NCBI GenBank assembly: GCA_024741835.1 | Contig: JAENRP010000309.1 | Span: 1-52,776 of the forward strand | Direction: 5' to 3' | Source: Diplocarpon mali | Taxonomy: Eukaryota > Ascomycota > Leotiomycetes > Helotiales > Drepanopezizaceae | Length of the DNA stretch: 52,776 nt | Shown: positions 1 to 52,587 of the stretch, one piece after another | Layout: every line of letters begins with the position of its first letter | Numbering within the stretch: the stretch's first letter is position 1 | Program-made: the position numbers and the translations under genes | The notes under the pieces: model-generated | Seen by the model: only the letters and a program-made list of their open reading frames with translations | What the model was told of the DNA's origin: nothing | Database searches by the model: none

Positions 1-1527
1 TAATCAATTTATATAGTTTATAAATAATAATTATAAAGTGATCTTTAAAGTTAAAATTAAAGATAGACTTTATATTATCTTAAAGGTAATATTATAGAAA
101 TTGACTCTTAGGCCGGACTTATAAGTAGATTCCTTTAAAGAAAGTGCACTCTTTGCCTTAATATAATTAAGCGAGGATAAGGAGAATAGATGGACTCTTA
201 AGCTAGGATTATAAATGAAATTCGCAAAAACAACTCTTAAGCTAAGACTATAAGTAGAATATAATATATCCTTAAAGATGACTTTTAAGCTAGGATTATA
301 AGTGAATTTAATAGAAATAACTCTTAAATTAAGACTGCAAGTGGATTCTATAGATTTGCTAATAATAACTCTTAAGCTAGGATCGCAAGTGAAATTCGTA
401 GAAATGACTCTTAAGCTAGGACTATAAGTAAACTTCGCAGATTTATTAAAAACGACTCTTAAGCTAAGACCGCAAGTAGATCTTACTATTTCTAAGAAAT
501 CGACTCTTAAGCTAGAACTACAAGTAGATCTTGCGATTTTATTAAAAACGACTCCTAAGCCAGGCTTGCAATTAGAAAATAGTAAAACCTTAAACTACTA
601 TTACTAGTCCTTTTTAGCTGCTAATAATAAAGTATTAATTAATAATAGGCTACTAAAGCTATTAAAAGCCAAAAGCCTATTAAGGTATTAGCTAATATAT
701 AAAAGATTCGCGCATCTAAGGCTAGAGAAATTAAAGGACCTATATAAGGTCTTAATCTTAAAATAGAAGATCTAAGTATTAAAGGATCGCCTAGTATGCC
801 GAATTTATAAGCTAATAAAACTTTAAAATCAGATATAAATTAAGCTTAATCTATAGAAAGATTCGATATTAGCACTAATATCTATTAATACTACTAGACT
901 ATTTATAACCTTAATTAGAGGAAATAATTAGTTTTTTTAAATAGTAGATAACTCTACTTAGTAGATATAGACCATTTGCGCTAAGACTAAATTTAAGCTT
1001 ATAGAAAAGCTGGAAACTTAGAAAGTAATAAAGGAATGCCAAACCTAATTAAAGCTAATAGCTATTAGGTCTAATAACGCATTAGAGATTAAGGTAAAGC
1101 TTAATAAATAGGCAAAATAAGGAATTTATTATAAATTAACTATAATATATAAAGGTTCCTATTAAAATAGCATCGCTAAGCAAAGTATCTAATAAGCAAA
1201 GACTGACTATCGCGCTCTACTATAAGATACTAACCTACTACTGGAATTCTAGGACCTTGCGATTAAAGCAGACGTATACTTGCGAAATAGAATAGGTAGT
1301 AGACTAATAGTCAATAGTACCTAAATATTACTATATAAGGCATATTTCAGATAGAAACCAAGCCTAGATTATATCTATATCTTTAAAAGCGTCTGCTACT
1401 CCTATATTAGCCTAAAGTCCTAGCCCGCGGGTATAAAGAGTAAAAAGCTAATAGACTGAGGTAGAGAGTATATATTTATTAAGTATATTAAATAAATAAT
1501 AAAGTAATAGATAGTATACGCGCTAGA
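1..1527 (+). pseudogene. Ty1/copia copy A, part 1: protease end to integrase
   Basis: Decayed part of a copia-type polyprotein. It aligns base by base with 10684-12162 of copia B and, reversed, with about 25380-26760 of copia C. Read on the plus strand with TAA/TAG taken as former Gln codons, it gives the end of the protease region, a run of short-motif insertions (103-576), then a GAG-pre-integrase/integrase segment with RFAHLRLEKLK near 700-740. It is 48 bp longer than the same stretch of B, which matches one additional motif unit. The copy ends at CTAGA (1523-1527), where gypsy G1 inserted, and continues at 8636. Its 5' LTR and gag lie left of the window. No open frame survives; family assignment is firm. 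Confidence 0.88.
103..576 (+). repeat. Array of 10 short palindromic motifs in copia A
   Basis: Ten degenerate copies of the motif beginning GACTCTTAAGCTAGGA and ending TATAAGT or GCAAGT start near 103, 194, 231, 280, 320, 368, 407, 456, 503 and 549. Spacing is irregular (roughly 38-90 bp) and the intervening sequence differs, so this is not a simple tandem repeat. The array lies between the protease and GAG-pre-integrase domains and reads through in frame. Copia B has nine copies and copia C seven in the equivalent place. Confidence 0.85.
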
Positions 1528-1778
1528 TATTACGGCCGCATCACGTGCACGGCACTGCACGGTTATATCACGTGTCGAAGTCAGGTGCACGCTAAGGTAG
1601 CGAGGTGGCTGGATCACGTGCACGCTAGTAAAGCACCTGTACTTATTCTGGAGGAGCTTTATTAAAGACTCTCTCTTCTTTATCTTTTCTTCTCTATTAT
1701 ATAGCATACCTCTTAAGGTAATATAGTTAGCGTTACTCAATTATCGCCCCTCTATACGCTTTAAAGCAAGTTGTAATA
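1528..1778 (+). repeat. 5' LTR of gypsy G1
   Basis: Begins TATTACGG (from TGTTACGG) and ends GTTGTAATA (from GTCGTAACA). It is the partner of 8385-8635 and has the same length, 251 bp. The first half contains CACGTG palindromes and several GTGCACG words. The two LTRs differ essentially by C/T and G/A transitions. An ORF that crosses it on the opposite strand has no support. Confidence 0.95.
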
Positions 1779-2770
1779 TAAGAAAAGATCTACTTAACCT
1801 CCGCTAAGAAGCTTAATATCTACCCCCTTTAGAATCGTCACTTCGAACTGCCTTAAGCAACTCAATCTCTTAATCTCGACTCTTCTACTACAAACTGCCT
1901 TAAGCAACTTGTATATAGCGCTTAGATTTTACTAATCTAGTTTTTAAAGAAAGCTGAAAAACGCCCTTCGAATACGAGATCAGCTCGTTTTTCGACCCTT
2001 TACCTACTCTATTTTGCAAATAGAAACTTACCTTTAATTTCAATTCGAAAAAAATATATTTACTATACCCTCGCTTCGCTAGCATAGGCTGCTGCCTAGA
2101 GTAGTATATAACTTTTCTCTTCTTAACTCTCTCCCTCCCTTATAAACACTCTATACTACTCGCTTTTATCGACCTATACTTATCGACAACTCTACCTATA
2201 CTTATCGACAACTCTCCTTATACTCTTTAAAGCTCCTCCTTCCTTTGAAACCCTCGAATACAACTCGACTCCTCGAAGACCCCTCCTTGCGAATAAGTCG
2301 TCGACCTTCTTTATACTCCCTATCGACCTATACTTATCGACTCTTCCTTATATTCTTTAAAGCTCCTTACTCCTTCCTTCTTATACTTAGGTACGAAACT
2401 GAGGGACCTATACCTATATATATACGTAAAGACTTTAGTTAGCCTTAGTAGGTTATACTATACCATTAGAGATTAGGTCAACTTTAGTAGAGTAATAAGC
2501 TTTAGATCCCTAGACCCTACTTCCTTAGATTTGCACTGCACCTTTAGATAACCTTATTGCAACTCCTAATTAGTAAAGAGACGTAATCCTAAAGTAAAAC
2601 CTTCTTTCTTAAGATCTATAAACCTATAATACCTTAATATATACTCTACTAGAAGGCTTTAAGAATGTATATAGCTCTGCCTATACTAATCTTCCCCCTT
2701 TTAAATAGGTTACTATTTAGCATTAGATCCCTTTAGACTAAACTAGATAATATAAAGAGAGTTAGTACTT
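1779..2770 (+). other. Leader of gypsy G1 with short direct repeats
   Basis: Untranslated leader between the 5' LTR and the gag ATG, about 1 kb. I see no gene. It holds an A7 tract near 2048-2054 that became a 23-base homopolymer in sister G2, three copies of TATACTTATCGAC (near 2176, 2199 and 2329), and a repeated CTTTAAAGCTCCT word. No convincing tRNA primer-binding site could be read after position 1778. Confidence 0.6.
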
Positions 2771-2826
2771 ATGACCTTTAATCTTATACCACTTAAGAGA
2801 AGTGAAAGGTTAACTGTACCTCTACC

Positions 2827-2920: not shown

Positions 2921-2985
2921 AGTCTTAGAGATATTCCCCCTCTTAAGCTTAGTTAAGAAGAAACCTCCCTTAGTACAGATTCCAC

Positions 2986-3011
2986 TCCTAGGCCTAGCCT
3001 ATAAGTGGATT
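2986..3011. repeat. Short palindromic motif in G1 gag
   Basis: One copy with arms CCACTCCTAGG and CCTATAAGTGG, the longer CCA/TGG version of the motif. The same site in G2 is 49518-49543. In frame it reads TPRPSL plus V, like the copies in other elements. Confidence 0.8.
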
Positions 3012-4767
3012 CTCGAAATACCCTATTACTATCGATTGAAGTTAAAGAAGAAGATATACTCTTTTTAAAGATATCTACCCTTACTATATCGGCCCCTCTC
3101 TTTTCAATTGCCTAATAGGCCGAAATCGCAAACCTTATCGGCGCTGCTATAGCCGCTGCTCTTTAAAATAATACTACTGCCCCTTCTTCCTTAAGTGCTA
3201 GCCCTTAAAATACTCAGTCCTTTACCGCCGACTTACTGCCTTTCTTAGACTATTACCTTTTAATCATCCGACCTTTAATCTTAGCTATCGACCTTTATCA
3301 GATTAAGTACCCTTAAACCTATTTTAGCAACTACTAAAGCGAAATCACTTATAACACTTAAAAGATAGCTATAAAGGTATTTATTTAAGAGTATTTAAGC
3401 AACTTCACTTTAGAAGAGGACTAGATTACTATTTACTTTAAGTATATAATAGGTAAAGCTTAAAACCTAATCCTATAATATATAGATCCTATCTTTATTA
3501 ATAAGTTTATATATACTACTAATATCCTTAGGGTTTTAAATCAAAGGTTCTTTAATTATAATTATATTTAATCCGCTAAGCTTAAATATAATAGGCTAAC
3601 TATAGACTTAATATTATATAATAAGTTCTAATCTAAGTTTATTACCTTTATTATAGCTAGTAAGATCGATCAGTCTTACTAGTTTAATAACATTTATAAA
3701 AAGGTCTCCTTAGCCTTAAAGAACGACCTTTAAGTAAAGAAGTATAAAATAAATAACAATTATACTACTTTAGATAAGTTCTTAGCTATTGCAAATCGCA
3801 AGGCTTATAATATTAAGTAAGAAGAAGCCTATAACGCTTGATAAGTCGCCTTTGCTATTATATTCTCCCTTTTAAAGGACCGCGTCCCTAGTATACTGAA
3901 AAGGGAGTTATAAAGACCTATAGCCATAGCTACCTCCTTAGCTCCTTGCACTTATTCCCCTTCGCCAGCGGCCTATTAAGAAAGGTCTGCTAGCCTAAAG
4001 CTATCATTAGGTCTCTACTATAATTGCAAAGCCCTTAATCACTATGCGATAGACTGCCTTAAGCTAAAGAAGTAAGGCAAGTTTATAATAGCTAAAGTTA
4101 AAATGGAAAACGACCTATTATTAAGAAACTGCTAAGCTATAGTAAAGACTCCTACTATAGCATAGGTTATAATTTATAAAAAGACTTAGATTTTGATTCC
4201 CGCCTATTAATAGGCGGCCGCTAGTTCTTAGTTCCTATAGAACTAGCTTGAAATAGATCATTTATTAAAATAGTTGCTTATATTAATAGTAAAGCTAATA
4301 TTTTCGGTATTATTAAGACGTCTTTAGTATACTAGCTCTCCTAAAGACTTAGGGTAAAGTTTATTAAACTGCTTAAACCGATTATCCTTATTGGCTATAA
4401 TAGCCTTAAGAGAGAAACCATTTGATTTGCTATTTTACTTACCCTTATAATCAATAGGCGATGAATCAACTTCCCTTTCTTAATTATAAGCTTAAGAGCA
4501 ACTGACATTTTAATTAATAGGAAGTTCCTAAAGCATTATAACCTTAAACAGTCTTATAGAAAAGGAGAAAACCGTATCTCTTAGCCTAAGGATATGCCTA
4601 TTATCCTCTACTTTAATCGACGCGTATTAATCGATCTCTTGCAGCTAATAAAACCCCTAATAGCTTAATAAGATATCGATCGTTAAGCAGCTATAATAGA
4701 TACTAAGGATAAAGACCTAAGAATGGCCTAAGCCTAGCTCTCGGTGCTAGTAAGTAATAACGCTTCG

Positions 4768-4838
4768 AATTCTACTCCTAGGCCCGGCCTGCGAGTAAAA
4801 ACTGCAAACTCGAATTCCACTCCTAGGCCTGGCCTATA
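4768..4838. repeat. Two palindromic motifs in G1 protease-RT spacer
   Basis: Two copies 41 bp apart: CTACTCCTAGGCCCGGCC with right arm GGCCTGCGAGT, then CCACTCCTAGGCC with GGCCTATAAGTGG. The homologous pair in G2 is at 47700-47771. Both read through in frame. Confidence 0.85.
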
Positions 4839-6705
4839 AGTGGCCTCTTATAGACCTAAGGATAGCAGTTTCTTTAGAGATTTGAAAAGAGATCTGAACT
4901 ATATAAAGAAGGCCTTATTAAGAGTACTAGACCCTTTGCTCCCTCTTTTAATAAAGAGAAACGCTCCTTTAAAAATGGCTTATTAGATTAGCCTAATCTT
5001 AGCCTTAGCAATCGGCGCCCTTTACTACCGCTTTATAATTAGGGTAAAATAAGCTATATAAACTTAAGAACTAGCACTTAAAGAGTTTACATTTATAAGC
5101 TCTATTTATAATTTAGACTAAGAGATTAATCGCTAAGAATCGGCTAGGCAAGCTGAAATTAGCTCCCTTGGCCTTAGTTCGGCGCTGTAAGCTAAGTATA
5201 AGAGTAATAATAAGCTAATAGACTAAAAGCTCCCGCCTTAGTACGCTAAGTTTAAGAACGTCTTTAGTCGCTAGGCCTTTGATTAGCTACTAGAACCTAA
5301 GCTAAGGGTAGATTATAAAATCGAGCTAATAGGCGAGAATAACTTAATAATCAAACCCTTCTACCGCCTTACCGATAAATAGCTTTTAAAGGTTAAGAGC
5401 TATATTCTCGAGAACCTATATAAAGGATTTATTAAAGCTTCGAATTCCCTTTAAGCAGCCTTAATCCTCTTTATTAGAAAAGCTAATAGCTCCTTACATT
5501 TATACATCGATTACCAGAAACTGAATGCCCTAATAAAGAAAGACCCCTACCCGATTCTACTTATCGATAAGATAATAGCATATATATCGAAAGCTTATAT
5601 TTTTATAAAAATCGATATATAATAAGCCTTCTACTATATCTGTATATTAGCTAACGCTAAGGACCTAATTACCTTTTGCATGCGTTATAGGACTTACAAA
5701 TATAAGGTTTTGCTATTTAAGCTAATAAATAGGCCTACTACCTTTTAACAGTTTATTAATAATATTCTCCTTAACCACCTTAACGATTTCTGCTCTACTT
5801 ACTTAAATAATATTCTAATCTACTTAGAAAACTCCCTTGATTATAAGATTTATATTAAGAAGATCTTAAGAATTCTTTAATGCTATAGCCTTTAAGCAGA
5901 TATTAAGAAAAGCGAGTTTAAGGTTATTAAGATTAGGTTCTTAGGGTTTATTATTAAAGTTTACAAAATTGAAGTAGACCCTAATAAGGTCTTAATTATT
6001 TAAGAGTAGAAATATGCTAAGAATATACATAGTATATAAAGCTTCTTAAGGTTCTGTAACTTTTACTAAAGGTTTATTTAAAGCTATAGTCATATCTGCC
6101 GACCTTTAATAGCTCTTATAGGAAACGTTCCTTTTAATTTTAATAATACTTATAAGGAAGCTTAAGAAGCTCTGCGCTTAAGCCTTTAAACGACCCCGAT
6201 TTTATACTACTATTACCCTTAGAAGTAGATAAGGCTTAAGACCGACGCCTCCGACGGCATAGTCGCTAGCGTACTCTCCTAATTCTAAAAAGACGATAAC
6301 TACCACTTAATCGGGTACTTTTTAAAGATGATAAATAATGCTAAGCTAAATTACCCTATTTATAATAAGGAGCTCTTAGCGATTTTTAAATCGTTCTACT
6401 AGTATAAGGCAGAGCTACTTAAGGCCTAGAAAACAGTATACGTATATATAGATCATAAAGCCCTTAAGTACTTTATAATAACTAAGGACTTAATAGCCCA
6501 GTAGGCTTGCTAAGCAGAGTTCTTCGCTGATTTCAACTTCCTTATCATATACCGAATAGGTATAACGAATACGCTGGCTAATATACTCTTATATCGAGAC
6601 TAAGAGCTGACCCCTCTTAAGGCCAGGAAACGAGCTTTACGCCACTAGCAGCTCTTACCTAACGATAAGCTCTCTATAGAAGTACTTGCTACTAGAGGCA
6701 ATTCC

Positions 6706-6730
6706 ACTCCTAGGCCCGGCCTATAAGTAA
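6706..6730. repeat. Single palindromic motif before G1 integrase
   Basis: One copy, arms CCACTCCTAGGCC and GGCCTATAAGT. G2 has two copies at the equivalent place (45773-45840), separated by a 45-bp period, so copy number here differs between sister elements. Confidence 0.85.
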
Positions 6731-8370
6731 CGATTGTGCCAATCGCACTAATAGAGGCACCTGCCGACCTAACGTCTAGGGTCGAGTATAATATAGCGAA
6801 CTACTACGTTATTAATAAGGTCATTTAAGCTAATAAGACCTCCCTTAAGCTATAGAAGTTCTAAGACAAGGCGTAGAGCCATAGCCTCGACTATAAACTT
6901 AGCTAAGGCAAACTCTTCTTTTAAGGTAGACTCATTATATTATCTTAACCGCCCAAACTGCGAATAGCTCTGATTTATTATATATATAAGCAACCTTGCA
7001 TCGCATACGCTAGAATTAGGAAAATAAGGCTTCTAGTAGGAAGAAAATACTACTAGAAAAGCCTTAGCAGCGACGTTAGCACTTATATCTAGAACTATTA
7101 TTATTTGAAAATAAAAGCTTATTATAATAAGACCCTAGGTTTCTTATAACCCTTGCCCATTCCCGAATAAGCTTACTAACACTTGATAATAGATTTCATA
7201 AAGCTTTCGCTTAATGAACTCAGTTATAATTTTACCCTTATAATTATCAATAGGTTATTAAAGAAGGCAGTTTCAATTCTATATTATAATTCGGTTAATG
7301 CAAAAGGCCTTGCAAAGTTGTTTTTAGTTTATTAGATATACTATTTTAATATACCTAACTCGATTCTATTAAATAGAGGCGCTTAATTCGTCTCTTCCTT
7401 TTAAAAAGAGCTCTATTAAATATTAAGTACAAAGGTTAAGCTAACTATAGCTTATAACCCTAATATCGATAGCTAAACTAAGATTATAAATTAGTATTTA
7501 AAACAATATCTTAAACTATTCTACTTATACTATTAAGACAATTAAAGTCGTCTCTTGCCTTTAATAAATATTGCCCAATTGACCTTGCCTTACAAATCCC
7601 TAGGGCAAATTTCCCCTTTTTAAGTGCTAAACGGCTATAAAGCTCGCTCCTCTTAGAATTTAATTAACCTAAAGCCTCTATAGATAGTAATCGAGAGATT
7701 AAATCGTAAAACAGCGCTCTATATAGTTACTAAAGCTTAAAAAGTAGTTTAATTCGCTTAATTATCTCTTTAAGTATAATAAGCTAAAATAAAATAGCTT
7801 ATAAATCTCTACTACTAGCCAGTTGATTAGACTATAAGAGATGATATACTAATTAATACTAAAAATTGGAAACTGGACCGGCCGAGTCGAAAGCTCTTTA
7901 ATAAGTGGTATAGCCTAGTAAAAGTACTAGAAAAGCTAAAGGAAAGCTAGAAGCTACAATTGCCTAATTTACTCTATTCGATCTACCCTATTTTCCACTC
8001 CCACTTACTGCATAAATATATTCCCAACCCCTTATTAGGATAAGTTAAGGAACCTCTTGCTATAATTAAAGTACTGCTAGAATAAGAGGAGTAAGAGATA
8101 GAAGAAATAATTGGATCTTATATTTAAGTTAAGAAGCTCGAATATTAGATTAAGTGGAAAGGAGCTAATAAAGACCTTAAATAGTACTTGTACTCTAATG
8201 CTATAATAGTGCCGCATACTATTCGAGATTTCCATCTAAAGAACCCTTAAGCTAAAGGGCTATTAAGGGCGCTATTAAGCTGGCTTAGGTTATATAAAAA
8301 TAGAGTTGACGATTATAGGGACCTAAAGGATAATATGCCTATGGATACAACTGCGCAAGCGCAGTTTTTC

Positions 8371-9240: not shown

Positions 9241-12200
9241 AAATGCAATTCTATTCGAAACGGCAATAGCTTCCGATTCCGATTGAAACACTAAGCCTAG
9301 AGACCTCCAACTCTCTCGGAAGAACTGGCAACGATAGTTCGACGATTTAAAGCTTTACTTTAAGAGCAAAGGCATTGAAATGGCAATTCAAAAGATACTT
9401 ATTAAATATATAAGAATAGCCCTCTATACTCCTTCTACTAATTCGTCTACTTTTACTTTAATAGCTAATATAACTGCTAAGGATTTACCAGATATATTAA
9501 ATAAGCTTAGCCTAAGAGCTTTAGTAGATAATAATCAAGAATCCTAAAAGCAGATTTTAAATATAGAAAAGGAGAAGGAGTATAAGTTGGCCTTAGCTAA
9601 ATGCAAGCTTAAGATTAATAGAGGTTTAAGCGATGAAGATCGAGATTTTATTCAAGTTCATAATAATGCAAAGATAAGATAAGATACCTTAAAGGTAAAA
9701 TACTCTTGCATAACTACCTTTAATACCTAGCATCTATTATAGCAGATTACTTTATTTTAATATAAAAAAGACAAAGATAGTAAGAATATAAATATAAATA
9801 TAAACTCTACCTAGTCTATACTATGTAAAGTAAGAAGGAGAGTAAGAGCCGCAGATCCTAGGATAGCTATAACTTTTAAGGAAACTTAGCTTTTTAGTTT
9901 CCTACTTAATAGCCTCCCTCTTAAGTTCGCTATTGCGAAATAATCTCTTCTCGTTTAACCTAACCTTAAGATCTATAAGAAGATCGACCTTCTTCGAACT
10001 ATTAAGTAAGACCTTAAAGGACGCTCTAAATCGGCAAATGCTGCGTTATAAGGCAACGATAAGCCTAAGAAGAGGAAGGAGCGCGGGACGAGCCCTTAAG
10101 CTCATTAGGGATACTACTTCTATAATAGTACTTATAATATTACTAATTATAAAGTTAGAAGGCAACTAATTAATATAGTTGCTAGCTTTAATATTAAAAA
10201 GCAATCGAAGCAGAAGTTAAGAAGCAAACTGCCTTTATCCTACCAAAGGCTATAACTACTAAGGAAAGGCAAAGGAAAAGGCTATTTAGCCAAAACTTTA
10301 GCAGATACCTCTAATAATAATAGTAGGTCATTTGAACCTAAATCCACTTTTAATAATTTAGATAATAATTATAATAAAGATGCTTACGTTTTAAAAGCCG
10401 ATCTTTGTAAGATCTTTGAATCTGACTAGTATAGTGATACTAGTTATATAGCATATATAATTGACAAACCCTACCTATTTAAAGGCTTGCTTATTAAAAT
10501 AAAAAGGCGCTCTATTAAGGTTAGTAGTAGAAGGTTATATACGGATTCAATAAGTATAGTAGAGATAAATATCACTAGCGTTTCTTTCCTTTTATAAAAT
10601 GTTCTCCTTATACTTAGCTTAGGTATTAATCTTTTATCTAATTGCAAGATCTATATAGAGTTGAATTATATAAGAGTTTTTAATAATCAATTTATATAGT
10701 TTATAAATAACGATTATAAAGTAATCTTTAAGGCTAAAATTAAAGATAGACTTTATATTATCTTAAAGGTGATATTATTAAAATTGACTCTTAAGCTAGA
10801 CCTATAAGTGGATTCCTTTAAGGAAAGTGCACTCTCTGCTTTAATATAATTAAGCGAGGATAAGGAGAATAGATAGACTCTTAAGCTAGGATCGCAAGTG
10901 AAATTCGCGAAAATGACTTTTAAGCTAGGACTATAGGTAGATTATAAGGTATCCTTAAAGATGACTCTTAAGCTAGGATTATAAGTGAATTTAATAGAAA
11001 TAACTCTTAAGCTAAGATTGCAAGTAGATTCTGCAGATTCGCTAATAATAACTCTTAAGCTAGGATCGCAAGTGAAATTCGCAAAAATAACTCTTAGGCT
11101 AGGACTGCAAGTGAAATTCGCAAATTCGTCAGAAACGACTCCTAAGCTAGGACTACGAGTAGATCTTACGGTTTTATTAAAAACGACTCCTAAGCTAGGC
11201 TCGCAATTGGAAAACGGCAAAACCTTGAACTGCTATCATTAGTCCTTTCTAGCCGCCGATAATAAAGTATTAACTAATAATAGGCTATTAAAGCTATTAG
11301 AAGCCGAAAGCCTATTAAGGTATTAGCTAATATATAAAAGATTCGCGCATCTAGGGCTAGAGAAATTAAAGGGCTTATATAAGGTCTTAACCTTAAAACA
11401 GAAGATCTAAGTACTAAAGGATCGCTTAGTATACCGAATTTGCAAGCTAATAAAACTTCGAAATCAAATGCAAACTAAGCTTAGTCTATAGAAAGATTCG
11501 ATACTAGCGCTAATATCTATCGATACTACTAGATTATTTACAACCTTAATTAGAGGAAATAATTAGTTTTCTTAAATAGTAGATAACTCTATTTAGTAAA
11601 TATAGACCATTTGCGCTAAGACTAAATCTAAGCTTATAAAAAAGCTAAAAACTTAGAAAGTAATAAAGGAACGCTAGACCTAGTTAAAGCTAATAGCTAT
11701 TAAGTCTAATAATATATTAAAGATTAAGGCAAAGCTTAATAAATAGGCAAAATAAGGAGTTTATTATAAACTAATTATAATATATAAAGGTTCCTATTAG
11801 AATAGCATCGCTAAGTAAAGCATTTAGCAAGCAAAGACTGATTATCGCGCTTTACTATAAGATGCTGACCTACTATTAGAATTCTAGGACCTTGCAGTTA
11901 AGGCAGATATATACTTGTAAAATAGAATAGGTAGTAGACTAATAGTTAATAGCACCCGAATATTACTATATAAGGCATATTTCGAATAGAAACTAAGCTT
12001 AGACTATATCTGCGTCTTTAGAAGCGTCTGCTACTCCTATATTAGCCTAAAGTCCTAACCTATAGGTATAAAGAGTAAGAAGCTAATAGACTAAGGTAGA
12101 GAATATATATTTATTAAGTATATTAAATAGATAATAAAGCAATAGATAGTATATGCGCTAGATCTAAGGCAAGTAATTATATTCTTAATAGTTGAATTTA

Positions 12201-30549: not shown

Positions 30550-30554
30550 AATTT

Positions 30555-32643: not shown

Positions 32644-32661
32644 TTTTATATATGCGCTTTT

Positions 32662-42500: not shown

Positions 42501-43640
42501 CAAGCCGACCTTAGGAGCATATAACTATAGATTATATGAGTTTTAATAAAGATAAGCATAGCTATAACAACGTTCTTGTGATTATCGATCGGTTTAGTAA
42601 GCAGGCAATCTCGATACCCTGCCGAAAGACTACCGATTCACGTTAATTAGCCCAACTCTATATATACTATATATATCGCTACTTTGGTCCCCCTTTAACA
42701 ATCACCTCAGACCAGGGCCCTCAATTCATCTCGAGCTTCTAGAAAGCTTTTACTTCCGTTTTAGGTACGAAACTGACCCTTAGTTCGGCCTACCACCCTT
42801 AAACCAACGGCCAAACCGAAAACTATAATCAGTACCTTACACAACGCCTCCGCCCCTTTATTAGCTACTATTAAGACGATTAGAGCGAATTCTTACCTAT
42901 AATAGATTTCGCCTAGCTAACTCTCCCCTATAACTCCCTCGGTGGCTTATCGCCATTTGAAGTAATGCATAGGTACGCTCCGCATACTAATTAGGACTAG
43001 AAGCTTAATGTACTTGATTCGGAGTCCCCTTCCTAGAAACTTAATCGATAAGACGCCCTTAAGTACTCTGCAAGACATTATAGAGCTTGGACCCTTGCTA
43101 AATCTCATATCCTCAAGGCCTAGGAACATATGCGAAACGCCACTAATACCTCTCGCCGCCTAGCTACTTTCGAAGTCGGCGATCAGGTATACCTAGATAT
43201 GCGTCCCTACCCTATAGATAGGCCTTCTAAAAAGCTCAGCTTCCCTAGAGCTGGCCCGTTTAAGATAGTAGAGAAAGTGTTCGATTTATACCGACTAAAG
43301 CTACCTAACTCTATAAAGGTACATAATGTCTTCCACCTGAGTCGCCTCCGAAGGGACCCTAGTACCCCTCTGGATAGTCAAGTGAATGAACCCCCTCCTG
43401 CTATCAATATTATAAGAGAATAAGAATACAAAGTAGAGACCCTGCTTGCTATACGGAAGCAAGCCGGTACGCTTATATACCGCGCCTCATAGGTTGGCCG
43501 CGATATTGATTTAGAATAATACCCAGCCTCTAATTTTATATATGCGCCTTTCAAGCTTTGCGAATTTCATTAGGAAAATCTAGACCTCCTAGGCCCGCCC
43601 GCAAGGCTTCCTAATTGGATATAGGCCTATACTGATAGTA
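39546..43640 (+). pseudogene. pol: pol of gypsy G3: protease, RT, RNase H, integrase, chromodomain-like tail
   Basis: Protease lies about 39560-39790: ALIDTGANRYTLID at 39650-39695 keeps the catalytic D-T-G-A, in a 75-codon open stretch. RT runs about 40690-41380, with the active box YLDNILIY at 41153-41176 where the second Asp is Asn. RNase H has TDASDGIVASILS at 41597-41635 and YTDYKALKYF near 41800. The integrase H2C2 finger is near 42330-42450 (HPSAYKTYQLL, then CHTCRRSK); its catalytic core has TSDQGPQFISSF near 42710-42745 and NGQTENYNQ near 42805-42830. A chromodomain-like tail near 43425-43620 ends in LGPPARLPNWI. The remaining stops are mostly TAA/TAG with a few TGA. Confidence 0.9.
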
Positions 43641-43706
43641 TAGATGATTATAATAAGATAGGTGACGATAAACCTATGGTTGGACGCTCGAGGACGAGCT
43701 TTTTTC

Positions 43707-43720
43707 AAAAGGGGGGGTGA
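43707..43720 (+). other. Polypurine tract of gypsy G3
   Basis: AAAAGGGGGGGTGA lies immediately before the 3' LTR. The region from 43640 to here is a short untranslated tail with nothing else recognisable. Confidence 0.8.
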
Positions 43721-44012
43721 TATAACGGATTGTCACTATATATAGGTTGTATCCTAGTTTGTACCCGGTTCGGCTACGGCTTGGCGCAATCTCGGTATAG
43801 GTTACGAACTAGGTTACCCCTGGTTGGCATCCGGTTCGGCTCCCCTTAAGCGGGTGACCCTCTTTTCTTTATATATATATTCTATGCCCTTCCACTCCTT
43901 TAAGGCTTAGTAGTTGTTGATTCTAAGTCATTACTAAGACGTTCTATTAGCATTGCTATATGATTCGTATACGTATCGGTGCTAAGCAGAGGTTATACTC
44001 CCAGTCGTCACA
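43721..44012 (+). repeat. 3' LTR of gypsy G3
   Basis: 292 bp, TATAACGGATTG to CGTCACA. The start has decayed from TGTGACGG by two G-to-A changes. It is followed by TATAT, the decayed partner of CATAT. Confidence 0.95.
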
Positions 44013-44017
44013 TATAT

Positions 44018-44112
44018 AATCCAGCCACCTCGCTACCTTAGCGTTAGCGTACACCTGACTTTGATATATAATATAACCGTTTATATAATATGCATATAAT
44101 GCGGCCGTAATA
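44018..44112 (-). repeat. 3' LTR of G2, proximal part
   Basis: 95 bp beginning AATCCAGCC and ending GCGGCCGTAATA on the plus strand. It completes the LTR begun at 37493-37657. The G2 polypurine tract follows at about 44113-44126 (CTACCTCCCCCCTTTG on the plus strand). Confidence 0.92.
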
Positions 44113-45772
44113 CTACCTCCCCCCTTTGAAAAACTGCGCCTGCGCAGTTGTATCTATAGGCGTATTGTCCTCTAGGTCCTTATAATCGTCAACTCTATTA
44201 TTATATGACCTAAGCCAGCTTGATAGCGCCCTTAGTAGCCCCTTAGCTTAAACGTTTTTTAAATGGAAGTTTTAAATAGCATACGGCGCCATTATAGCGT
44301 TAGAGCATAGGTACTATTCGAGGTCTTTATCAGCTCCTTTCCACTTAATCTAATATTTGAGCTTTTGAGCTTGAATACAAGATCTAATTATTGCTTCTAT
44401 CTCCTACTCCTCCTATTCTAGTAGTACTTTAATTAAGGCAAGAGGTTCCTAAACTTGTCTTAGCAAGGGGTTTTGAATATATTTACGCAGTAAGTGCGAG
44501 TGGAAAACAGGGTAGATCGAATAGAGCGAATCAGGCAATTATAGCTTTTAGCTTTCTCCTAGCTTTTCTAGTACTTTTACTAAGCCGTACTACTTATCAG
44601 AGAGCTTCCGGCTCGGCCGATCAAGCTTCTAGTTTTTAGTACTAATTAGTACATCATCTCCTACAGTCTAATCAACTAGCTGGCGGTAAAGGTCTGCGAG
44701 CTGTTTCATTTTAGCCTATTATACTTAAAGAGATAATTGAGCGAATTAGACTACTTTTTAAGCTCTAGTAGCTATATAGAGCGCCGTTTTACGATTTACT
44801 CTTTTAGTTGCTATCTATAAAGGCTTTAAGTTAATTAAATTCCAAGAGGAGCGAGCTTTATAGCCGTTTAGCACTTAGAAAGGGGAAATTTGCCCTAGCG
44901 ATTCGTAAGGCAAGGTCAATTAGGCAATATCTATTAAAGGCAAGAGACGACTCTAATTGTCTTAATAGTATAAGTAGAATAGTCTAAGGTGTTATTTTAA
45001 GTACTAGTTCATAATCTCAGTTTGGCCGTCGACATTAGGGTTATAAGCTATAGTTAGCTTAACCTTTGTACTTAATATCTAATAGAGTTCTTTCTAAAAG
45101 GCAAAGACGAATTAAGCGCCTCTATCTAATAGAATCGAGTTAGGTATGCCGAAATAGCATATCTAATAAATTAAAAACAACTCTGCAAGGCCTTTTGCAT
45201 CAACTATCTTATAGTATAGGATCGATACTGCCTTCTTTAACAATCGGTCTATTATCACTAGTGCAAAGTCGTAGCCGAGTTCGTCAAGCGGAAGCTCTAT
45301 AAAATCCATTATCAAGTATTAGTAAGCTCATTCGGGAATTGGCAAGGGTTATAGGAAACCAGGGGTCTTATTATAATAAGCTTTCATTCTCGAATAATAA
45401 TAGTTCTAAATATAAGTACTAACGTTGCTACTAAGGCTTTTCTAATAGTATTTTCTTCCTATTAAAAGTCTTATTTTCCTAATTCTAGTGTATGCGACGC
45501 AAGGTTGCTTATGCATATAACGAATTAGGGCTATCTGCAGTTTAGGAGGTTGAGATGGCATAATAAGTCTACCTTAGAAGAAGAGTTTGCCTTAGCTAAG
45601 TTCGTAGTCGAGGCTATGGCTTTGCGCCTCGTCTCAGAACTTCTATAGCTTAAGGGAGGTCTTATTAGCTTAAATGACTTCGTCGATAATATAGTAGTTT
45701 GCTATATCGTACTCGACCTTAGACATTAGGTCGGCAGGTGCCTCTATTAGCGCGATTGGCATAATCGTTACT

Positions 45773-45840
45773 CGTAGGCCGGGCTTAGGAGTGGAATTGA
45801 TCTGCGCTAAAGTTACCTATAGGCCGGGCTCAGGAGTGGA
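45773..45840. repeat. Two palindromic motifs before G2 integrase
   Basis: Copies 45 bp apart: ACTCGTAGGCC / GGGCTTAGGAGTGG, then ACCTATAGGCC / GGGCTCAGGAGTGG. G1 has only one copy at this place. The added 45 bp keep the frame. Confidence 0.87.
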
Positions 45841-47699
45841 ATTGCCTTTAGTAGCAAGTACTTCTATAGAGAGCTTATCATTAGGTAAGAGCTGCTAGTA
45901 GCGTAAAGCTCGTTTCCTAGCCTTAAGAGGAGTCAGCTCCTAATCTCGACGTAAGAGTATATCAGCTAGCGTATTCGTTATACCTATTTAGTATATAATA
46001 AGGAAGTTGAAATCAGTAAAGAACTCCGCCTAGCGAGCCTACTGGGCTATTAAGTCCTTAGTTATTATAAAGTACTTAAGGGCTTTATAATCTATATATA
46101 TATATACTATTTTCTAGGCCTTAAGTAGCTCTGCCTTATACTAGTAGAACGATTTAAAAATCGCTAAGAGCTCTTTATTATAAATAGGGTAATTCAGCTT
46201 AGCATTATTTATAGTCTTTAAGAAGTACCTAATTAAGTAGTAGTTATTATCTTCCTAAAGCTAAGAGAGTACGCCAGCAACTACTCTATCGGAGGCGTCG
46301 GTCTTAAGCCTTATCTGCTTCTAAGGGTAATAGTAGCATAAGATCAGGGTTGTTTAAAGGCTTAAGCGCAAAGCTTCCTAAGCTTCCTTATAAGCGTTAT
46401 TAAAATTAAAAGAAACGTTTCCTATAAGAGCTATTAAAGGTCGGCAGATACGGCTATAGCTTTAAATGAACCTTCGGTAGAAATTACAAAACCCTAGGAA
46501 GCTTTATACGCTATATACGTTCTTAGCGTATTTCTACTCCTAAATAACTAAAACCTTATTAAGGTTTACCTCAATTCTGTAAACTCTGATAATAAATCCT
46601 AGGAACTTAGTCTTAGTAACTCTGAACTCGCTTTTCTTAATATCTACTTGCAAGCTATAGCATTAGAGAATTCCTAAGATCTTCTTAATATGAATCTTAT
46701 AGTCAAGGGAGTTTTCTAAGTAGATTAGAATATTATCTAAGTAAGTAGAGTAGAAATCGTTAAAGTGGTTAAGGAGAATATTATTAATAAACCTCTAAAA
46801 GGTAGCAGGCCTATTTGTTAGCCCGAATGGCAAAACCTTATATTTATAGGTCTTATAACGCATGCGAAAGGTAGTTAGGTCCTCTGCGTTAGCTAATATG
46901 CGGATATAGTAGAAGGCTTATTATATATCGATTTTTATAAAAACACAAGCTTTCAATATACGTACTATTATCTTATTAATAAGTGGAATCAGGTAGGGGT
47001 CTTTCTTTATTAAGGCGTTCAGTTTCCGGTAATCGACGTATAAATGTAAGGAGCTATTAGTTTTTCTAATAAAGAGGATTAGGGCTGCCTAAAGGGAACT
47101 CGAAGCTTTGATAAATCCTTTATGCAGGTTCTCGAGAATATAGCTCTTGACCTTTAAGAGCTATTCATTAGTAAGGCAGCAAAGGGGTTCGATTATTAAG
47201 TTATTCTCGCCTATTAGCTCGATTTTATAATCTACCCTTAGTCTGGGTTCTAATAGCTGATCAAAGGCCTAGCGATTGAAGACGTTCTTAAACTCAGCGT
47301 ATTAAGGCGGGAGCTTTTAGTCTATTAGCTTATTGTTGCTTTTATACTTAGCTTGCAGCGCTAAACTAAGGCTAAAGGAGCTAATTTCAGCTTGCCTAAC
47401 CGATTCTTAGCAATTGATTTCTTAGTCTAGATCGTAAATAGAGCTTACAAATATAAACTCTTCAAGTACCAGTTCTTAAGTTTATATAGCTTATCTTACC
47501 CTAGTTATAAAGCAGTAGTAGAGGGCGCCGATTACTAAGGCTAAGATTAGGCTAATCTAGCAAGCCGTCTTTAAAGGAGCGGTTCTCTTTACTAGGAGAG
47601 GGAGCAAGGGATCTAGTACTCTTAGCAAGGCCTTCTTTATATAGTTTAGATCTCTTTTCAAGTCTTTAAAGAAACTGCTATCCTTAAGTTTGCAAAAGG

Positions 47700-47771
47700 C
47701 CACTCGCAGGCTAGGACTAGGAGTAGGATTCAAGTTTACAGTTTTTACTCGCAGACTAGGACTAAGAGTAG
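47700..47771. repeat. Two palindromic motifs in G2 protease-RT spacer
   Basis: Copies at about 47700-47724 and 47745-47769 (ACTCGCAGGCTAGG / GACTAGGAGTAGG type). They correspond to the two G1 copies at 4768-4838 and encode an NPTPSPSLRV repeat on the minus strand. Confidence 0.85.
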
Positions 47772-48330
47772 GATTCGAGTTCTTACTTGCTAGCACTAAG
47801 AGCTAGGCTTAGGCCATTCTTAGGTCTTTGTCCTTAGCATCTATTATAGCTGCTTAACAATCGACGTCTTACTAGGCTATTAAGGGTTTTATTAGCTGTA
47901 AGAGATCGATTAGTATATATCAATCAAAGTAAGGGATAATAGGCATATCCTTAGGCTAGGAGATACTGTTTTTTTCCCTTTCTATAGGATTATTTAAGGT
48001 TATAATACTCTAGGAACTTCCTACTGATCAAAACATCAGTAGCTCTTAAGCTTATGATTAGGAAAGGGAAGTTTATTCATCGCCTATCGATTATAAGGGT
48101 AAGTAAGATAGCGAATCGAATGGTTTCTCCCTTAAGGCTATTATAGCCAATAAGGGTAATCGGTTTAGGCAGTTTAATAAACTTCACCTTAAGTCTTTAA
48201 AAGAGCTAGTATACTAAAGACGTCTTAATAATACTGAAAATATTAGCTTTATTATTAATATAGGCAACTGTTTTAATAAATGATCCATTTCAAGCTAGTT
48301 CTATAGGAACTAAGAATTAGCGGCTGCTTA

Positions 48331-49740
48331 TTAATAGGCGGGAATTAAAATCCAAGTCTTTCTATAAATTGTAACCTATGCTATAATAAGAGTCTTTGCC
48401 ATAGCTTAGCAGTTTCCTAATAGCAGGTCATTTTCCATCTCAACTTTAGCTACTATAAACCCGCCCTACTTCTTTAGCTTAGGGCAGTCTATTATATAGT
48501 GACTAAGGGCTTTGCAGTTATAGTAAAGACCGGACAACGGCTTCGGGCTAGCAGACCTTTCTTAATAGGCCGCTGGCGAGAGGGAATAAGTATAGGGAGC
48601 TAAGGAAGTAGCTATAGCTATAGGTCTTTATAACTCCCTTTTTAGTATGCTAGGGACGCAGTCCTTTAAAGGGGAGAACGCGATAGTAAGAGCAACTTAT
48701 CAAGCGTTATAGGCTTCTTCTTATTTAATATTATAAGCCTCGCGGTCTGTAATAGTTAAGAACTTATCTAAAGTAGTATAATTATTATTTATTTTATACT
48801 TCTTTATTCGAAGGTCGTTCTTTAAGGCTAAGGAGACCTTTTTATAAATGTTATCAAATTAGTAAGACTAATCGATCTTACTAGCTATTATAAGGGTAAT
48901 GAACTTAGATCGGAACTTGTTATAGGATATTAAACCTATAGTTAGCCTACTATATTTAAGCTTAGCAGATTAAATATAGTTATAGTTAAAGAACCTCTGA
49001 TCTAAGACCTTAAGGATATTAGCAGCGTATATAAACTTACTAGCAAAGATAGGATCTATATATTATAGGATTAGGTTCTAAGCTTTACCTATTATACACT
49101 TAAAGTAGGTAGTAATCTAGTCCTCTTTTAAAGTAAAGTTGCCTAAGTACTCTTAAATAAATACCTTTATAGCGATCTTTTAAGCGTTATAGGTGATTTC
49201 GCCCTAGTAGTTGCTAAAATAGGTTTAAAGGTACTTAATTTGATAAGGGTTAACGGCTAGGACTAAAGGTCGGATAATTAGGAGGTAATAGTCTAAGGGA
49301 GGCAGCAAGTCGGCAGTAAAGGACCGAGTATTCTAAAGGCTAGTACTTAAGGAAAAAGGGGCGGCAGTATTATTTTAGAAAGCAGCGGCTATAGCAGCGC
49401 TAATAAGGTTTGCGATTTCGGCCTGCTAAGCAGCTAAGAAGAGAGGGGCCGATATAGTAAGGGTAGACGTCGGTTCTTCCTTAACTTCAATCAATAGAAG
49501 GGGAGTATTTTAAGAATCCACTTGCAGTCTAGGACTAGGAGTGAAATCGGTACTAAAGGAGGTTTCTTCCTAAGTGGGCTTAAGAGGGGGAATATCTCTA
49601 GGACTAGGGTTGGCAGTAAGGCCTATAGAACTAGTAGAACTAGTAGCAGTAAGGCCTATAGAACTAGTAGCAGTAAGGCCTAGTAGTAGAGGTGCGGTTA
49701 ACCTTTCACTTCTCCTAAGTGGCATAAGATTAGAGGTCAT
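48331..49740 (-). pseudogene. gag: gag of gypsy G2
   Basis: Minus-strand counterpart of G1 gag. The ATG at 49740 matches the G1 ATG at 2771. The zinc-knuckle region is near 48520-48475 (YYNCKALSHYIIDCPKLKK; the first Cys is again Tyr, as in G1, so either both decayed at this base or the shared parent already had it). A motif copy lies at 49518-49543. The plus-strand ORF at 49574-49768 is a shadow of the 27-bp repeat region. Confidence 0.8.
49518..49543. repeat. Palindromic motif in G2 gag
   Basis: Arms CCACTTGCAGTC and GACTAGGAGTG; same site as 2986-3011 in G1, so this insertion predates the split of the two elements. Confidence 0.82.
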
Positions 49741-50742
49741 AAGTACTAACTCTCTCTATATTATCTGATTTAGTCTAAAGGGACCTAATGCTAAATAGTG
49801 ACCTATTTAAAAGGGGGAAGATCAGTATAGGCAAAGCTGTATACGTTCTTAAAGCCTTCTAATAGAGTATATATTAAGGTATCGTAGGTTTATAGATCTT
49901 AAGAAAGAAGGTTTTACTTTAAGATCACGTCTCTTTACTAATCAAGAGTTGCAATAAGGTTGCCTAAGGGTGCAGTGCAAATCTAAGGAAGTAGGGTTCG
50001 AGGATCTAAAGCTTATTACTCTACTAAAGTTGACCTAGTCTCTAATAGTATAGTATAACCTACTAAGGCTAACTAAGTCTCTATATATATATATAGGTAT
50101 AGGTCCCCCAGTTTCATACCTAAGTGTTTCAAAGGAAGGAGTAAGGGGCTTCGAAGAGTATAAGGAGAGTTATCGATAAGTATAGGTCGATAGGAAGTAT
50201 AGAGAAGGTCGACGACTTATTCGCAAGGAGAGGTCTTCGAGGAGTCGAGTTATATTCGAGGCTTTCGCAAAAAAGGGGGAGTATCGAAGAGTATAAGGAG
50301 AGTTATCAACGAGTATATTATTAACAAGTATAAGGTCGATGAAAAAGAGTAGTATAGAGTATTTGTAAGGGAGAGAGAGAGTTAAGAAGAGAAAAGTTAT
50401 TATACTACTCTAGGCAGCAGCCTACGCTAGCGAAGCGAAGGCATAGTAAATGATTTTTTTTTTTTTTTTTTTTTTTAAATTGAAATTAAAAGTGAATTTC
50501 CATTTGCAAAATAGAGTAGATTAGTTAAGAAAACGAGCTGATCTTGTATTCGAAGGTTATTGCTTAGCTTTCTCTAAAAACTAGATCAGTAAGATCTAGG
50601 CGCTACGTACGAGTTGCTTAGGGTAGTTCGTAGTAGAAGTGTCGAGATCGAGAGATCGAGTTGCTTAAGGCAGTTCGAAGTGACAATTCTAAAGGGGGTA
50701 GATATTAAGCTTCTTAGCGGAGGTTGAGTTGATCTTTTCTTA
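49741..50742 (-). other. Leader of gypsy G2 with 23-base homopolymer
   Basis: Untranslated leader, no gene. It contains a T23 run on the plus strand (50454-50476), where G1 has only seven A on the coding strand. It also contains repeated GAGTATAAGGAGAGTTATC words near 50156 and 50287 and several ATCGATAAGTATA-type words. Confidence 0.7.
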
Positions 50743-51002
50743 TATTACAACTTGCTCTCAAGCGTATAGAAGGCGAGAATCAAATGACGCTAACTGTATT
50801 ACCTTAAGAGGTATGCTATATAATTGAGAAGAAAAGATAAAGAAGAAGAGAGAGTCCTTAGTAGAGCTCCTCTAGAATAAGTACAGGTGCTTCGCTAGCG
50901 TGCATATAATCCAGCCACCTCGCTACCTTAGCGTTAGCGTGCACCTGACTTCGACACGTGATATAACCGTTCACATGATGTGCACGTGATGCGGCCGTAA
51001 TA
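50743..51002 (-). repeat. 5' LTR of gypsy G2
   Basis: 260 bp, plus-strand TATTACAACTTGC to GCGGCCGTAATA, followed by ATCAG. It is related to the 251-bp G1 LTR and keeps CACGTG near 50956 and 50984. Confidence 0.94.
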
Positions 51003-51007
51003 ATCAG

Positions 51008-52587
51008 AGATTCGAGTCTCATTTTCTAAGGTATTCTTATTACAAATAGCTATATAATTATTGCAAAAGGCTATAAAGCTACTAATTCTATAAAGTTTGT
51101 CTAAGCGCATTTTAAAAAGGTGCCCTTGTTTTATTATTACTATAATAGGGTTACTATTATTAGTAATAGGTCGTAAGATCTCTTTTTACTTCATTTTTAC
51201 AATTATACAAGTTAGCTAAGATTTTGAACTAAGTGCTTAGGAAGTCTATCGACTTATCTTCTTTATAGATAAAGTGAGTTTCACATTTGATTAAGAGCCG
51301 ACCTACCTATTAAGGCTTTTAGAAGCTGGCCCTTATCCGATCAGTAGGATCTAATAATCTAAGACTTGCTTTTTAATAAAATTAACTTATAGGCCAGGAC
51401 TGCAAGTAAAAATCGGAATTTCTTTATTAGTAGCATTTGCATCCCTCTTTATCGAAACAACTTAATTATAAAGACTAAGGCCAATTAATTAAAGAGGTTT
51501 AAAGTAAGCTATAAGCTAATAGGCTCTTTTACTTTTTGCTATTATAACTAAGAGGTAAAGTCTATAATACATCCAAAGGACTTATTAAATAAGACTAAAC
51601 ATTATATTATAAAGAAAATAAGAAGGTATAAAGGTCGCATTATCTATAGGGCAGAAGTAATAAAGGTATATCTCTACTTCTTATCTTATAATAAAGAGGA
51701 ATATACTTATTAAAGCACTATTATTAATAGTAAAATTGTCGGTTAAGAAGCAGCATCCGAAGGGTTTAAGTATCACAATTGACCCTTCTTCTTCTATTTC
51801 CTCTTGCTATTTATTGCTTAATAATATCGAAAAGAAAGAATTGTTCTATTTAATTAGCTCTAATGCCTTTAAGGCTTTAGGATTAGCCTTGAATTTTACA
51901 GCACTTAAAGATGCTTCTATTATTAATAGGTTAAATTTGCATATCTTTAAAGAGATAAAGAATTAATTATTAAAGTGGATTAGAAAAAGATCGATATCTT
52001 CTACTATATAAAGAAGTTCGAAGTATTTAATAGTTTCATTAATATTAAATCCTTTATAATTAAGACTATAGTAAATCGAAAGAGAGCGAATATAAAAGTT
52101 GCAAAGTCTTCTTCCTTCGATTCCTACGCTAGGAAGATACTATCGAAAGCGAGTCTTTATTGCAAAGGATATTTAAATATTATATTATTCTCTAAGCTTA
52201 AGGTTAAGAATGACCGATTAAGGCATATTGCTATAATTATAAATATCTTAATTAATAGATTCCTCTTTGTATTCTCTTTCTCGCAAGATAAAATAGTCTC
52301 GCTTAGCATCTGAGAGACTAGGTTCTTAACTTTTATAATTATTAAAGAATTGAATAATATCCGTAAGGGCGAACTCATTTAAGATAAGCTATTAAATCTG
52401 TCTAACGGCTCTCCTAATTATCTCTAGAGTAATAGGAATAGGGTCTTCCCTTATATTATTATTTCTAAAACAGTTGCATATAGATATAAAGAAGTTAAGA
52501 ACTAGCTCCTTTAAGTTATTAAAGAAGGAGTTTAAGTAAGCGCGCAATCCTTTAATTTTAAATTGCAAATCAGCTAAAGTAGCTATT
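51008..52587 (-). pseudogene. U2, N-terminal/central part: paralogue of U1
   Basis: A minus-strand frame with TAA/TAG at former Gln codons aligns with U1. IIQFFNNYKS near 52350-52320 matches IIQFFINYKKLN in U1. KFKANPKALKALELIK near 51895-51850 matches KFKVALKALKLFYN. EVEIYLYYF..PSYFLYNI (about 51690-51590) matches EVEIYRYHF..PSAFLYNI, followed in both by SLI, a two-residue gap of former Gln codons, and MYYxLYL. A palindromic motif is at 51385-51408. A plus-strand 76-codon stretch at 51736-51966 is a shadow. The gene was cut downstream by G2 (resumes at 37487) and upstream by a copia LTR at 52588, so its N-terminus is missing. Function unknown. Confidence 0.6.
51385..51408. repeat. Palindromic motif in U2
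   Basis: Arms ACTTATAGGCC and GGACTGCAAGT. It is near the position of the U1 copy at 33908-33933 (both follow the conserved MYYxLYL block by about 40-60 residues), so it may be an ancestral shared insertion. Confidence 0.78.

Follow-up and report, generated by a model that had tools for sequence, protein, structure and literature searches.

The GC42 cluster of Saccharomyces mitochondria is 42 nt long and has a putative target duplication, and its authors suspect that it is copied through RNA (PMC4478555). Rickettsia palindromic elements, of ~150 bp, lie in frame in unrelated bacterial genes, metabolic ones included (PMC10969869). PARCELs are tandem coding repeats of 25 amphipathic residues with dyad symmetry in the DNA, partly associated with mobile elements (PMC2996958), and the fungal GalEa copia elements carry a conserved palindromic hairpin at a single noncoding site beside the 5′ long terminal repeat (LTR) (PMC5445492). 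Here we analyse a stretch of 52,776 bases from Diplocarpon mali (contig C309, JAENRP010000309.1; hereafter the window), in which a GC-rich, nearly palindromic unit with a 23-bp core recurs in several LTR retrotransposons. The unit is abundant, lies in unrelated contexts, obeys a reading-frame rule in one shared phase, varies in tandem copy number and also has noncoding copies. With confidence about evenly divided, we propose that it is a unit of less than 50 bp that has been copied within and between co-resident, unrelated LTR retrotransposons, multiplied in tandem and kept where it can be translated.

Abundance of the unit in the window and the genome

The window has a GC content of 35% and is a block of LTR retrotransposons altered by repeat-induced point mutation (RIP): its indices are 1.51 for TA/AT and 0.63 for (CA+TG)/(AC+GT), as compared with 0.60–0.74 and 1.14–1.31 in four genic-looking stretches of 3 kb. 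A genic open frame on contig C3, for an HPP-family protein, matches a protein of Diplocarpon coronariae (apple blotch fungus) at 100% identity, followed by one of D. rosae at 81%, so that D. coronariae is the most likely source. Its genome is given as ~34% repeats and 21% LTR/Copia (PMC11527701).

The initial annotation had described more than 40 copies of a hairpin-like unit with the arm ACTCSTAGGCC. With at most one mismatch, this arm matches the window 33 times where 1.77 matches are expected, and none of 100 shuffles reaches 33. A weight matrix of 35 columns (the core plus six flanking bases per side, symmetrised, with seeds picked by the core pattern at up to three mismatches) finds 51 instances over the cut-off, 50 of them with a positive score, in agreement with the claimed abundance. 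A profile search of the whole genome had also been recommended. In one genome of this organism (49.37 Mb in 676 contigs), the exact arm alone gives 2069 matches versus 30 for the reversed control. The full unit (mutation-tolerant core, at most two mismatches) has 7133 places and its reversed pattern 12; for the unmutated core and its reversed control the figures are 58 and none. The observation of a repeated short unit is confirmed. That a mutation bias, or chance, merely yields look-alikes has a negligible probability: GC-rich remnants do stand out in the AT-rich DNA made by RIP, but this explanation is refuted by the reversed control and by the presence of complete units in two little-mutated elements, L025 and L041 (L-numbers denote genomic loci fetched for comparison).

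Among ten hand-picked arm-match loci on long contigs, six hold units and have a RIP-like or intermediate composition; the remaining four are genic-looking DNA in which no unit scores above zero. The matches listed include no exact full match on contigs C2, C3 and C5 (together 1.47 Mb); C3 nevertheless carries one diverged copy (L050). A score of at least 20 is reached in 58 of the 77 loci longer than 1 kb, a proportion that is not a rate, since most of these loci were selected for matches to the motif or to reverse transcriptase (RT) and some overlap. Where loci had been fetched for RT domains, units occur in 9 of 12 with RVT_2 and in 2 of 12 with RVT_1. In the sampled loci, the unit looks restricted to retrotransposons. 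The exact core pattern has no match in IMG/VR or in the GTDB genome collection, from which near relatives of the genome studied here are possibly excluded. A mosaic query of linker pieces, with 925 word-sharing candidates, retrieved no protein of another species with the peptide at E ≤ 1, in a weak search that reaches only proteins of 0.55–1.75 times the query length and in which single units score poorly. No earlier description of the unit was met in the literature searched, most subscription papers lying outside its reach.

Host elements and unrelated contexts

Hosts were mapped in the window by tblastn with open pieces of little-mutated copies; L025 is such a copy of family F1 and L041 of family F2.

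4102–7455 (+) and 45043–48439 (−): F2, a Ty3/gypsy family (G1 and G2), by tblastn
30558–32210, 16187–16846 (−): F1, a copia family (copia-E), by tblastn
12482–14188 (+) and 23338–24624 (−): F3, a second copia family (A/B/C), by tblastn
36862–32644: U2, unknown gene of a two-gene element, matched to contig C1
Upstream neighbour of U2: U1, unknown gene, grouped by flank clustering

These hosts, which are scattered across many contigs, appear to correspond to those named in the initial annotation (copia A/B/C, copia E, gypsy G1/G2 and U1/U2). The assignment of F2 and F3 is supported by constant distances, since array and 3′ unit are 3134 bp apart in both F3 copies and the two joints 1887 bp apart in both F2 copies. 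U1 and U2 are homologous to each other (27% identity over 830 columns, E 4e-46, stops taken as X), and a Pfam scan of the X-masked U2 frame returned no domain. The pair is a multi-copy element, seen in the window at 32644–36862 and 36985–51407 and also at C1:402586–409300 (L003–L007). The stretch that follows U2 in the window recurs after U2 on C1, where it adjoins another host; it may be a terminal repeat.

When 206 unique instances (score at least 12, 60 bases on each side) were masked for the unit and clustered by their flanks, 18 clusters resulted. About 16 unrelated contexts are left after a stray member of an F3 array (W_368), a single instance (L003_103) and one mixed cluster are discounted, and several of them belong to one and the same family. 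The earlier claim that the unit sits in unrelated elements without other shared homology is thus borne out. The copies in the window are as follows.

104–573 (+): array of 10 units, 39, 48 or 90 bp apart, all multiples of 3, by the weight matrix; same array family as 10787–11208, with the host pol outside the window
2984–3006 (+): single unit in the N-terminal part of a gag-like open reading frame (ORF) of gypsy G1 (F2); the sense frame from the ATG at 2771 reads DSTPRPSLxV
4774–4841 (+): pair of units spaced by 45 bp at the joint of protease region and RT in gypsy G1 (F2), phase 0 of the pol frame
6706–6728 (+): one unit at the RNase H–integrase joint of gypsy G1 (F2); joint located by Pfam in the relative L041
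10787–11208 (+): 9-unit array upstream of integrase/RT of copia F3, all nine in phase 0 of the pol frame
14320–14407 (+): pair of noncoding units spaced by 65 bp downstream of RNase H in copia F3, phases 2 and 1
16293–16315 (−): unit downstream of the pol stop in copia-E (F1), in phase 0 at this locus and variable among copies
23051–23200 (−): 3 units downstream of RNase H in the second F3 copy, spaced by 66 and 61 bp, phases 0, 0 and 2
26312–26655 (−): 7-unit array upstream of integrase/RT of the second F3 copy, all seven in phase 0 of the pol frame and separated by 3134 bp from the 3′ units
31873–31943 (−): pair of units spaced by 48 bp in the integrase–RT linker of copia-E (F1); this linker follows the SH3_retrovirus domain in the relative L025
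32663–32685 (−): unit beyond the 3′ end of the U2 ORF; its C1 homologue does not follow the U2 frame
33088–33110 (−): unit in U2; in the U2 frame, its homologous copy on C1 reads TTPRPGPRLN
33910–33932 (−): unit in U2; the homologous copy reads RLTPRPGSQVSS
35140–35162 (−): unit in U2; the homologous copy reads SSRRPGPQVKI
35326–35348 (−): unit in U2, a perfect match to the palindromic consensus; the homologous copy reads DLTRRPGLRVEE
36985–37007 (−): unit in U1, in a flank cluster with L003_2374, which reads KLTRKPGLRVRLD in frame
45770–45837 (−): pair of units spaced by 45 bp at the RNase H–integrase joint of gypsy G2, where G1 has a single one; tblastn aligns 145 codons with 130 residues of L041
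47702–47769 (−): pair of units spaced by 45 bp at the joint of protease region and RT in gypsy G2 (F2), by tblastn
49520–49542 (−): one unit within the gag region of gypsy G2 (F2), in the same flank cluster as 2984
51385–51407 (−): unit in U1, in a flank cluster with L003_1489, which reads IFTRSLGLRVNF in frame

The protease just upstream of the F3 array is presumed from an active-site motif; Pfam found nothing there.

Structure of the unit

In little-mutated copies the core is ACTCSCGGKCCNGGMCCGSGAGT, and the weight matrix gives it the pattern ACTC-S-CGGKCC-N-GGMCCG-S-GAGT with weaker, AT-rich flanks. The unit measures 23 bp as a core, ~35 bp with these flanks and 45 to 48 bp with its spacer. 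The unit of the initial annotation is real, but the arm as it was written, with TAGGCC, is the RIP-mutated version of SCGGKCC. The unit remains recognisable after RIP because its core has few CpA or TpG steps. Likewise, the described complementarity of the arms holds as a near-palindrome with a recurrent mismatch: positions 5 and 19 are C and C, read in one orientation, in 44 of the 50 places listed out of the 58 little-mutated ones. In these 44 places, positions 9 and 15 pair in 27, as compared with 22.5 expected from their own frequencies.

These features bear on the possibility that the unit is a cis-acting site, that is, a palindrome bound by a dimeric protein such as a zinc-cluster factor, or an RNA hairpin for packaging or dimerisation. 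Judged from the sequence, such a function may exist, and we consider it unlikely, if not implausible. The arms are conserved at the base level, noncoding copies exist at 3′ ends, and the core holds CGG and CCG 7 bases apart (CGG-N7-CCG), a layout that we take to be linked to zinc-cluster factor sites. Compared with shuffles, the RNA folding of six units gave z values of −3.77, −0.18, −0.40, −2.17, −2.57 and −2.88, so that four units outperform almost every shuffle (z −2.2 to −3.8); however, two do no better than shuffles and two of the other four, the fourth and the fifth, use different outer stems. Moreover, the pair 5/19 is mismatched as described above, 9/15 is unpaired in 17 of 44 places, and no Rfam family is found in the window at the gathering score. 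A uniform RNA hairpin finds support neither in the folding, which varies among units, nor in how the variable positions pair.

Reading frame and encoded peptide

The phase in which the unit is read is ACT-CCC-GGK-CCN-GGM-CCG-CGA-GTN, encoding T-P-G-P-G-P-R-V or variants of it. Its first base falls on codon position 1 in all 25 window copies with a verified pol frame and in the four U2 copies inside the ORF on C1; the three U1 copies have the same phase. The other 25 copies of the window comprise four in U2 that were placed by homology, seven at 3′ ends and 14 outside the frame check (2984, 49520, ten at 104–551, 36985 and 51385).

In copies with little mutation, the units between integrase and RT of F1, downstream of the SH3_retrovirus domain (Pfam), read DLTPGPGPRVNS and DFTPGPGPRVNS. 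F2 has NLTPGPGPRVKS twice before RT and DSTRGPGPQVTS between RNase H and the H2C2 integrase domain. The F1 site between gag and protease, which lies upstream of the gag_pre-integrs domain, reads LTREPGPGVNS and STRGPGPGVSS; the protease just before that domain is again presumed from an active-site motif. At this site the arm asymmetry is reversed and the phase unchanged, which breaks any rule of sense-only orientation. The U2 units read LTRRPGLRV, SRRPGPQV, LTPRPGSQV and TTPRPGPRL in a frame with 48 stops versus 122 and 160 in the others, and the U1 units LTYNPRLRV, FTRSLGLRV and LTRKPGLRV in a frame with 41 stops versus 91 and 112. 2A-like ribosome-skipping peptides have N-P-G-P at the C-terminal end of their motif; the units that were read show T-P-G-P, G-P-G-P, E-P-G-P, R-P-G-L and similar strings, with no Asn before PGP, and this candidate was rejected.

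If nine sites are treated as independent, the chance of a single phase is 1.5e-4, a value that overstates the surprise because one of the three phases meets a TGA with the TTTGACTC flank and because some U1 and U2 sites are probably homologous. Neighbouring units are 39–90 bp apart overall, mostly 45, 48 and 54 bp. In coding arrays, every one of 89 adjacent pairs is spaced by a multiple of 3, although many of these pairs are homologous copies and hence not independent; in the noncoding 3′ array of F3, 3 of 8 pairs are. Reading in frame more often than by chance, which the initial annotation had proposed to examine, is what these spacings indicate. In the F3 array (window 73–594 and the listed copies), the strand opposite pol stays open in most listed copies despite RIP, probably because the codons rarely become stops; openness of this strand by itself does not justify a gene annotation.

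Exceptions to the frame rule exist: seven of the 50 copies, located beyond the last pol domain or ORF (14320, 14385, 16293, 23051, 23117, 23178 and 32663), have mixed phases, with phase 0 in three of the seven. Among nine copies compared, the 3′ unit of F1 is in phases 0, 1 and 2 in three, four and two cases, respectively; the F3 3′ units have the phases given above for the two window copies, and the fifth U2 site is out of register with the U2 frame. The earlier statement that all checked copies are in frame accordingly stands for those with a verified pol frame and fails for the 3′ ends. In F1, GGGGTGATTT precedes both the noncoding 3′ copy and the first coding unit between integrase and RT; perhaps these stretches are the polypurine tract and an internal duplicate of it, as their sequence would suggest. 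Repeats like AAGGGGTGATTTTTTTGCAC follow the F1 pol stop (L025:396–480, L026:2980–3100), and a related GGGGTGATTT is present in the linker between integrase and RT.

Alternatively, the peptide itself may be what matters: TPGPGPRV-like linkers at domain joints could be processing sites or rigid, soluble spacers that selection has kept or recruited, an explanation that we regard as rather doubtful. It would fit the position of the coding sites of F1–F3 at domain joints (by Pfam, behind the SH3 domain of integrase and at the boundary of RNase H and H2C2 integrase; by tblastn, between protease region and RT and upstream of integrase/RT), which also supports the earlier placement of the unit in variable linkers between domains. 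It would likewise fit the constancy of the phase under reversed arm asymmetry and the codon arrangement, in which the variable positions 6, 9, 12, 15 and 18 are third codon positions; the variable positions 5 and 19, for their part, alter the residue. Yet the unit is also found at 3′ ends, where its phase is free, and F1 and F2 share a codon choice that convergence on a peptide does not explain. In seven hand-picked F1/F2 units, the Thr codon is always ACT (7 of 7; 42% usage), the six units with Gly at codon 3 all use GGT or GGG (33% usage; the remaining unit has Glu), and codon 5 is GGA or GGC in all seven (67% usage); the pattern used for this choice of units itself favours G/T at position 9 and A/C at position 15. 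The noncoding copies and the common codon choice together rule out a convergent peptide as the full story. From the bases, both a coding history and a common DNA descent seem to be written in the unit.

Copy number, empty sites and flanking sequences

In the F1 linker between integrase and RT, 20 aligned copies have two units in 14 cases and three in six, and their differences are in-frame blocks, each amounting to the gain or loss of a unit plus its spacer. A further F1 place (on C86) has overlapping matches to both units, a pattern of coordinates consistent with a single unit. The joint between RNase H and integrase of F2 has one or two units per copy. The F1 spacer is common to the integrase–RT and gag–protease sites (z 5.8, reached in none of 60 permutations), which, like the GGGGTGATTT stretch ahead of both the 3′ copy and the first integrase–RT unit, speaks for copying within the element.

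Several results weigh against copying between sites and elements. At the F2 joint between RNase H and integrase, 40 of the best 40 of 177 candidates keep the query span and none is short by a unit, two-unit F2 copies being absent from these 40. Among the best 40 of 234 matches to U2, 36 keep the span, one is one base longer, three are nine bases shorter and none is a unit short. The presence of the unit thus looks fixed within families. No convincing target duplication was found: a 3-base register is present at 6 of 18 sites, with a score that none of 300 shuffles reaches, and its triplets, AAT (3), TTT (2) and ATC (1), may belong to the AT-rich flank of the unit rather than to a duplication. 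From family to family, spacers resemble each other only weakly (z −0.3 to 3.2), and no spacer is shared by the two joints of F2 (z 0.8, one spacer being available only on one side). In addition, the first two U1 sites roughly coincide in position with the first and third U2 sites; since U1 and U2 are homologous and these positions roughly agree, part of the pattern is vertical. In favour of copying, the peptide is absent at that place from three proteins with a related linker (two metagenomic, the third from Podosphaera aphanis), but they are too diverged to serve as clean empty sites, the Podosphaera protein covering only half of the query.

The initial annotation had likened the unit to a miniature sequence that copies itself. 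With neither an orthologous empty site among the F2 and U2 matches just described nor a convincing duplication around the AT-rich triplets, self-copying is unsupported, and the initial interpretation holds in part. It had also named a pattern that would speak for mere travel with the retrotransposons; of that pattern, restriction to retrotransposons is seen in the sample, but extended flanking homology is not seen between families, though the F1 spacer is shared internally. A DNA-level miniature mobile element with an insertion chemistry of its own, of which only in-frame insertions would survive, is improbable. Such an element would account for the thousands of copies, the palindrome and the unrelated sites, for both arm asymmetries in sense orientation and for the weak 3-base register in the flanks; on the other hand, neither a convincing target duplication nor an empty site was found, and the four sampled 3-kb stretches of genic appearance contain no full copy.

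Other features of the window

An island of repeated TCACGTGCAC-like stretches lies at 1530–1680 within the mutated block, upstream of gypsy G1, and short tandem repeats resembling GGGCCTTACTGCCAATAGTTCTAC, which read GLTANSST, are present at 2820–2920 in the gag-like ORF of that element. Further copia RT pieces are found at 15458–15835 and 19040–19567. A third gypsy element, at 40172–42793, carries no unit; this element and L037 have a linker DSTPTPP.V with a faint likeness to the unit peptide.

Discussion

The mobility of the unit, copying as the cause of its distribution, reverse transcription as the route and the direction of transfer are what we infer from the pattern. As we read them, the facts would call for a common DNA origin, copying within elements, tandem growth and selection that keeps the frame. 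A GC-rich near-palindrome would be copied among positions of one element and among unrelated LTR retrotransposons, followed by local multiplication through tandem duplication. Copying would most likely take place in the retrotransposon life cycle, where reverse transcriptase may pause and switch template at a GC-rich hairpin or at microhomology. Template switching on co-packaged element RNAs could give rise to a common origin, new positions and tandem growth without any new enzyme, and would agree with the confinement to retrotransposons. Coding copies would survive only where they are tolerated, that is, at polyprotein joints and in flexible linkers, without frameshift and in one phase, and noncoding copies at 3′ ends would escape this rule. 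RIP would mutate the host elements later. A role of the peptide or of a binding site may exist alongside such copying.

It is tempting to speculate further that the unit is a parasite of parasites, a palindrome of less than 50 bp without genes that spreads by the reverse transcription of others and is not purged because it can be translated in one phase. We offer this only tentatively, as a possibility rather than an expectation. If it were true, the units would be in-frame crossover points for domain swaps between unrelated retrotransposons. More generally, the system would show how unrelated retrotransposons exchange coding sequence, and it would open the copying route to testing by strain comparison and in yeast.

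The unit shares with the mitochondrial GC clusters, such as GC42, a very short, GC-rich and palindromic sequence in many copies, with a palindrome that is imperfect here; it differs from them in residing in LTR retrotransposons, being translated in polyproteins and forming tandem arrays. As for the putative target duplication of GC clusters, the unit shows AT-rich triplets at 6 of 18 sites and nothing convincing. Like the Rickettsia palindromic elements, it is a palindromic repeat in frame in unrelated ORFs, but it is shorter (23–35 bp), fungal and seen only in retrotransposons, and insertion as such, in the form of an empty site, is not seen. With PARCELs it has in common tandem coding repeats with dyad-symmetric DNA; in contrast to these, its repeats are rich in Pro and Gly, are 13–16 residues apart in the larger arrays and lie at polyprotein joints. 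The GalEa hairpin is likewise a palindrome in fungal copia elements, but one at a single noncoding site and of another sequence. Miniature inverted-repeat transposable elements (MITEs) have terminal inverted repeats with a target duplication and are mobilised by a transposase; the unit has a palindrome and shows no convincing target duplication. Because in each case a defining feature is lacking or unseen, we do not file the unit under GC clusters, Rickettsia palindromic elements, PARCELs or MITEs. By analogy, the way in which it works resembles that of ultra-short palindromic elements, with GC clusters and Rickettsia palindromic elements as the systems that it resembles. Such elements are known from mitochondria and bacteria; here, one is present in thousands of copies in LTR retrotransposons, tied to the reading frame and, as far as sampled, confined to these elements.

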